Assembly (NCBI GenBank): GCA_903833215.1
Contig: CAILEM010000121.1
Location: 1-46,446, forward strand
DNA length: 46,446 nucleotides
DNA from: an uncultured Armatimonadota bacterium
GTDB taxonomy: Bacteria; Armatimonadota; Fimbriimonadia; Fimbriimonadales; Fimbriimonadaceae
Direction of reading: 5' to 3'
Part shown: positions 3,778 to 4,424 of the stretch, one piece after another
How the letters are laid out: every line of letters begins with the position of its first letter
Numbering within the stretch: position 1 is the first letter of the stretch
Notes under the pieces: generated by a model
Database searches by the model: none
Told to the model about the DNA's origin: nothing
Seen by the model: only the letters and a program-made list of their open reading frames with translations
Made by a program: the position numbers and the translations under genes

Positions 3778-3853
3778 TGCCGGATAGCTCAATTGGCAGA
3801 GCGTCTGACTCTGAATCAGAAGGTTCTAGGTTCGAGACCTAGTCCGGCAGCCA
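3778..3853 (+). tRNA. tRNA-Gln (anticodon CTG)
   Basis: Complete cloverleaf. The acceptor stem TGCCGGA pairs with TCCGGCA (U1-A72, a glutamine identity element), the D arm is GCTC/GAGC, and the anticodon stem TCTGA/TCAGA encloses loop CTCTGAA. The T arm is CTAGG/CCTAG with TTCGAGA. The discriminator is G73 and CCA (3851-3853) is encoded. It reads CAG codons and is charged by the GlnRS encoded at 38259-39977. No long variable arm is present. Confidence 0.97.
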
Positions 3854-3899
3854 ACTTCCCATTTTTCCATTCCTCGGACTTGTGACGTCTGGGTGTGGG

Positions 3900-4262
3900 T
3901 CTAGGGGCGATACCCCGACAAGATGGATCGCGCCTACAGCGCTCTGGGGATGGTGTTCGCCTTCCGCCAGGGTTTCACCCTTCGCTATTATGGAACGCAC
4001 CCTTGGTGCTCTCGGACGGATCGGAAGATTGCAGGAAACACCTAGAAAAGGATCACCCGCAGGGTCCGAAAAGGGAAAGTCCAACTCGTCTCTCCTCGAC
4101 GTCCATAGCCGTCGCCGTTCGCTCGTCGATGGGCAGCCAGCGCGCCACTGTCTGAGCCCGAAGGGGCGAGTTTGGCGCGCGCCGAGCGATGACGAACGAT
4201 TAAGCGACGGTTCGGGACGTGGAGGAGAGACAGCACCCAGCGGTGTGAGCGTCCGAACCAGC
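3900..4262 (+). ncRNA. Candidate structured RNA downstream of tRNA-Gln
   Basis: A stretch of about 570 bp between the tRNA and the SGNH hydrolase has no convincing protein gene but many hairpins. Short ones: GGGG/CCCC at 3904-3916, AGGGT/ACCCT at 3969-3981 and GCACC/GGTGC at 3997-4009. The main helix pairs 4088-4104 with 4215-4231, 17 bp with one mismatch. It continues inward with CCGTCGC/GCGACGG (4109-4115 with 4204-4210), CGTTCG/CGAACG (4116-4121 with 4193-4198), GCGCGCCA/TGGCGCGC (4140-4147 with 4173-4180) and GCCC-GAAG-GGGC (4156-4167). GGTTCGG/CCGAACC (4209-4215 with 4253-4259) crosses it. The strand is assumed from the tRNA. No RNase P, tmRNA, SRP or known riboswitch signature was found. 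Bases 4266-4391 show nothing clear. Confidence 0.45.
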
Positions 4263-4391
4263 TATCAATCAAATTCGAATCGGAAGACGATCAAGAGCCG
4301 TTCGAAGATTGAGCGAAGGAATACGTCCCAATCGTTCAAAAGTGACGGATCCACCAGGAACTTTGGAGGAGGACGACTTTTCTGATCCGAG

Positions 4392-4403
4392 AACTATATA
4401 GAA
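4392..4403 (+). promoter_or_regulatory. Candidate operator AACTATATAGAA
   Basis: A 12-bp near-palindrome 21 bp before the start of the SGNH hydrolase gene. It matches the perfect palindrome TTCTATATAGAA at 6795 except for the first two bases, and shares CTATATAGAA with 11570-11581. It is proposed as a binding site of the GntR/LacI-type regulator encoded just downstream. The same bases could also contribute to a -10 element. Confidence 0.45.
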
Positions 4404-4424
4404 GGTCTAGGTATATTCCTTGAT

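Follow-up and report, generated by a model that had tools for sequence, protein, structure and literature searches.

What is the densely structured DNA that lies between a tRNA-Gln gene (positions 3778–3853) and an SGNH gene on a contig of an uncultured Armatimonadota bacterium, and does it belong to either of these genes? A sequence-only reading of the whole stretch of 46,446 nucleotides, which we call the window, had assigned an RNA structure of unknown family to positions 3900–4385 and had considered either a large non-coding RNA transcribed together with tRNA-Gln or an SGNH operon leader. From the copies of this element and their distribution we conclude that it is not an RNA gene linked to the tRNA but a REP-like composite interspersed repeat, ordinary in kind and unusual in form.

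The structured region of the window

The dense structure is real. Folded as RNA, the region 3860–4420 lies below its dinucleotide shuffles with a z-score of −4.75 and the region 4040–4290 with a z-score of −6.36; in both cases no shuffle was equally stable, and other copies of the element carry compensatory changes. Of the 17 positions of the near-perfect stem that had been read at 4088–4104/4215–4231, 16 are standard pairs in the window copy and one is a G–G at 4098/4221. At least three short hairpins had been noted in the region and four were found, at ~3899–3919, 3930–3942, 3969–3981 and 3997–4009.

All 7 pairs of a second helix (4209–4215/4253–4259), which crosses the long stem and had been taken for a pseudoknot or an alternative state, can form in the window copy. 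In the other copies this helix is paired to 75% and complete in 5 of 33. Its 5′ strand hardly varies and its 3′ strand does, and compensatory changes are missing. Thus, the helix as such is present in the window, a conserved pseudoknot it is not, and judged from the aligned copies it is most likely chance complementarity of the window copy.

The only long open reading frame, 3882–4385, would encode 167 amino acids. As this frame has no NCBIfam match, is open across the core of the element in 14 of 38 copies and shows among the copies neither an excess of third-position substitutions nor a codon signature, we rejected it as a protein gene, and the region is indeed devoid of a protein-like gene as had been assumed. 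A known RNA family was not found either: with Rfam gathering scores the tRNA is the only match in the region and the element has none, and a lax scan (E up to 10) gave no credible family and one sub-threshold chance match, which falls on the tRNA itself.

Directly upstream of the SGNH gene there is an A/T-rich motif, CTATATAGAAGGTCTAGGTATA (4393–4416), and a similar counterpart, CTATAGAAGTTATAGGTATA, is found in genome G012 (L110, ~1440–1480). The motif is possibly the operator of the GntR-type regulator that is encoded alongside.

Copies and anatomy of the repeat

When the source genome (6.2 Mb, 168 contigs) was searched with the element we obtained 62 matches, many of them extending over 350–450 bases at 72–84% identity, and shorter ones with up to ~93% identity. 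A covariance model of the core, R1, finds ~65 sense places genome-wide, which are full, short or decayed copies; there are ~45 strong sense copies plus decayed ones and forms of ~60 nt, and the antisense matches of the model are those expected from a palindrome. A search of 60 relatives, 19 of them from the same genus, gave nothing comparable, and among 291 genomes of the phylum just one other species, G004, has matches. The exact core pattern was matched neither in genome contigs nor in viral contigs, and nothing similar to the element was found in plasmids. A clean empty site, a target duplication and exact ends of the element were not obtained; no relative shares both flanks.

The alignment of full copies sets the limits of the repeat at ~3875 and ~4320, which differs slightly from the 3900–4385 that had been assigned. 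The whole unit of ~450 bp consists of three modules in the order U, core and tail. U (3875–4050) comprises the four small hairpins, each of 13–24 nt. The core (4052–4262, plus strand) has an outer helix (4053–4064/4236–4248) which encloses a conserved asymmetric loop and a long hairpin (4088–4231, plus strand) that includes the 17-bp stem; unpaired stretches within the core are conserved in the copy alignment. The apex of the long hairpin bears the motif CTGTCTGAGCCCGAAGGGGCGAGTT (4148–4172, plus strand), which is common to hairpins of many phyla. The tail (4263–4320, plus strand) is purine-rich with recurring GAGCCGNNCGGAGG, and similarity fades along it.

These modules are seen in the arrangements U–core, U–core–tail, U alone, core and core–tail, with constant order and orientation apart from few exceptions. 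When U and core are both present, their order, orientation and spacing are nearly always identical. Core without U and U without core are both found, and about one third of the core copies have no recognisable U. The long hairpin is absent from the ~60-nt copies and longer in some others, in which extra stem segments are present on one or both arms; this is consistent with growth of the stem or with decay by partial deletion. Stem inserts of the type CCTCCTTCGCAGAGCTACGGCGGAC with a partner on the opposite arm were observed at L083–L086, L089, L034, L037, L040 and L059. In addition, cores as well as pieces of U are found in tandem at L028 (3405–4156), L035, L047, L057 and L094; the tandem junctions are similar, with CCAG..CCCC(A/G) joined to ATCACC, and look like recombination between repeats.

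Both hairpin modules have covarying pairs, and in this the sequence-only reading is supported. In the core alignment (A2, 34 copies, 67 pairs) 94.7% of the cells are paired, 18 pairs have changed on both sides, and 93 cells have both sides changed, compared to 31.6 in shuffles. As a control the partner was slid by 1–3 columns, and pairing fell to 27–46%. In the U alignment (A3, 43 copies, 24 pairs) 92.6% of the cells are paired and both sides have changed in 101 cells, compared to 29.4 in shuffles. Since the copies are related these counts are not independent events, yet several stems show three or four pair types.

The wobble pairs also tell which strand is folded. The core has 74 G–U against 26 A–C wobbles when read on the plus strand, and the plus strand is the more stable one in 31 of 34 copies. 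For U the pattern is reversed, with 12 G–U against 43 A–C on the plus strand, and the U hairpins 1 to 3 fold better as minus strand, which suggests that U is folded on the minus strand. The strand that is folded thus seems to differ between U and core. As part of the explanation that we regard as the best one overall, it is rather probable that the hairpins are kept as strand-specific folded structures.

The tip of the long hairpin in other phyla

In the R1 matches of G004 the loop TGTTTGAGGCC(C)GAAGGGGCCGAGTT is retained and the arms differ. From the loops of G004 and the window we derived the tip pattern CTGTYTGAG-N(1-4)-CGAAGG-N(1-4)-CGAGTT. This pattern is found in at least 117 GTDB contig stretches, against ~4 expected by an estimate that assumes uniform composition, and in none of the viral contigs. 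The matches listed include Zoogloea, Azoarcus, Thauera, Azonexus, delta-proteobacteria and Nitrospirota, and also Bacteroidota, Bacillota, Eggerthellaceae, Acidobacteria and Gastranaerophilales; among them the tip caps a hairpin of 12 or more crossing pairs in 106 of 120 occurrences. The arms of these hairpins are unconstrained by the pattern and differ, yet they pair with all four Watson–Crick types, and the strand with the motif is the more stable one in 57 of 86 cross-phylum hairpins. As the search itself fixed the letters of the loop, direct evidence of their conservation comes solely from the case of G004 and from the surplus of matches over chance.

In Zoogloea and Azonexus the same apical motif tips a long hairpin within a repeated unit of 570–650 bp. 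This unit is a palindrome in which two tip hairpins stand face to face, whereas the element in the window combines a single hairpin with a U array. The palindromes (L183:6500–7155, L202, L257 and L258) also contain outer hairpins, for example CTTTCTTTGCTTACTTTCTTGGCGAAGC. A relative in Variovorax, the one annotated example, is intergenic and sits between convergent genes in a gap that has no annotation. At 17 tip loci Rfam gave no gathering-score match to the hairpin, and a lax scan at two tip loci gave sub-threshold scores only, mostly of miRNA type. A gene family specifically linked to the tip was not found at the 117 listed loci, and a single Y1-like frame lies within 8 kb of these related tips.

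In the open-access literature we found work on REP sequences and Y1 transposases and no description of the tip motif; the cross-phylum hairpin tip appears to be undescribed so far. We would suggest, as a tentative possibility, that the core is one member of a so far undescribed family of long hairpins which spans phyla and has a conserved asymmetric apical internal loop (CUGUYUGA/GAGUU), possibly with tandem G–A pairs beside a GAA-capped stem, and that this loop may be the recognition site of a shared putative enzyme or host protein which spreads or uses the elements as RNA or as single-stranded DNA.

Genomic placement, Y1 transposases and a proposed mode of spread

The copies are nearly always intergenic. 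Genes were called with a hexamer model that had been trained on the copy-bearing loci. Of the 58 copies that could be placed, 28 lie between convergent genes, 27 between co-directional and 3 between divergent ones. Element-free gaps of 50–250 bp in the same loci are distributed differently (11 convergent, 52 co-directional and 38 divergent), and with these gene calls the placement bias has a p-value of about 1e-8. The co-directional copies have no strand preference, 13 being oriented with and 14 against the genes, and this lack of a favoured transcriptional orientation argues against a leader or a sense 3′ regulator.

The same bias toward convergent and away from divergent gaps has been published for REPs (PMC3733652), and the likeness goes further. 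As in REP, BIME and REPIN sequences and in REPtrons, we find multi-copy intergenic palindromes with covarying stems, and as in REPtrons arrays flank a Y1 transposase gene. The differences concern size and enzyme. REP and BIME units, which end in a GTAG or CGTC foot, have 20–40 bp; the single U hairpins are of 13–24 nt, whereas the window element as a whole has ~450 bp with a hairpin of 144 nt and an outer closing helix. REPtrons have TnpA_REP (RAYT), whereas the enzymes near the U arrays are IS200-like and of subclass 1.2.

The source genome has seven Y1 genes. U arrays are present on both sides and in both orientations around the genes at L063 and L065 and, more weakly, at L062; no U array accompanies the gene at L064, which is close to the end of a contig. 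The proteins of all four genes (L062–L065) have the signature Y---Q--HH, which is that of subclass 1.2 TnpA_Y1 (PMC6006769). The protein of L062 passes the NCBIfam model IS200/IS605 with 61.6 bits (cut-off 55) and with a score of 23 stays far below the cut-off of 80 for REP_Tyr_transpos. A cognate TnpA_REP (RAYT) gene was not found within the repeats. What was found is an IS200-type Y1 gene flanked by the hairpins of U and not by the core, which is absent from all seven Y1 gene loci. The class 2-like Y1 genes at L066–L068 were rejected as partner, as they have no U array, and an RT or retron-like partner was rejected, as the four RT loci do not have the core. In the genus, Y1 transposase genes are numerous (in G000 at C25, C50 and C122, and in the relatives G002, G003, G007 and G009, the latter with up to 26 Y1 matches), and many of them have the subclass 1.2 signature.

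Genes of subclass 1.2 have been described as generally without typical terminal structures, whereas here they lie within multi-copy hairpin arrays; class 3 Y1 genes likewise have atypical multi-copy hairpins on their flanks, which carry a CnGA foot, and these genes differ in the Y motif (PMC6006769). Subclass 1.2 genes inside such arrays are near to known systems and are not described in that study.

We consider it fairly probable that the element is one copy of a composite non-coding REP/BIME-like interspersed repeat which most likely spreads non-autonomously via a Y1 enzyme of subclass 1.2. The repeat would have multiplied in the source Armatimonadota genome without a transposase of its own. 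The enzyme acting in trans would be an IS200-related Y1 (HUH) transposase of subclass 1.2 whose gene lies elsewhere in the genome. It would recognise the small U hairpins on single-stranded DNA, core and tail would be carried along with U, and the copies would be retained chiefly in gaps on the downstream side of genes. What we observed directly is the set of copies with its modular order and covariation, the bias in placement, and the U arrays beside Y1 genes; from these observations we infer that a Y1 enzyme probably moves the repeat and that the whole unit probably moves as one. Against this model speak the absence of the core at the Y1 genes, the L064 gene without a U array and the core copies that have no recognisable U. 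The apparent folding of U and core on opposite strands is likewise not required by a single intermediate of single-stranded DNA.

It is rather unlikely that the core is instead a multi-copy functional RNA, that is, a transcribed hairpin whose conserved internal loop (CUGUYUGA/GAGUU) binds a protein and whose placement reflects tolerance or use in 3′ untranslated regions. The strand-specific wobble pattern, which holds for the core and for the strand with the motif in the cross-phylum hairpins, would fit such an RNA, as would the conserved unpaired stretches and the recurrence of the tip across phyla. However, single-stranded DNA tolerates G–T wobbles too, the copies are oriented without preference with respect to the flanking genes (13:14), a promoter-like site for the core was not seen in what is a weak test, no linked gene is found, and numerous copies are decayed, truncated or in tandem.

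Less likely still is that the core is separate from U and has been spread by another putative enzyme, one specific to the long hairpin or to its tip, and that the two modules simply came to be linked. The existence of either module without the other agrees with this, the Y1 loci never carry the core, and tips elsewhere mostly have no Y1 gene within 8 kb. Against it, joint copies nearly always keep the same order, orientation and spacing, and a small hairpin of similar kind stands ahead of the core in G004 as well.

A large non-coding RNA transcribed jointly with tRNA-Gln, or an SGNH operon leader, has in its favour the location between the two genes and a structure that is real, and it is nevertheless highly improbable: the ~65 copies are scattered among unrelated neighbouring genes with just one other copy near a tRNA gene (~140 bp), relatives have no element downstream of tRNA-Gln, and in G012 and G004, where the SGNH and GntR-type genes remain adjacent, neither tRNA-Gln nor the element is near this operon. 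We rejected both proposals, as the linkage to tRNA-Gln or to the SGNH operon is not conserved.

On the favoured reading of a composite repeat, what appeared to be a single non-coding RNA gene becomes an interspersed element of clear anatomy, and multi-copy hairpin arrays are tied to a Y1 subclass that has been described as generally without them (PMC6006769). The part of most specialist interest is the shared hairpin tip. Its occurrence with differing arms across phyla points to a common putative recogniser, for which the tip is a short and testable probe.
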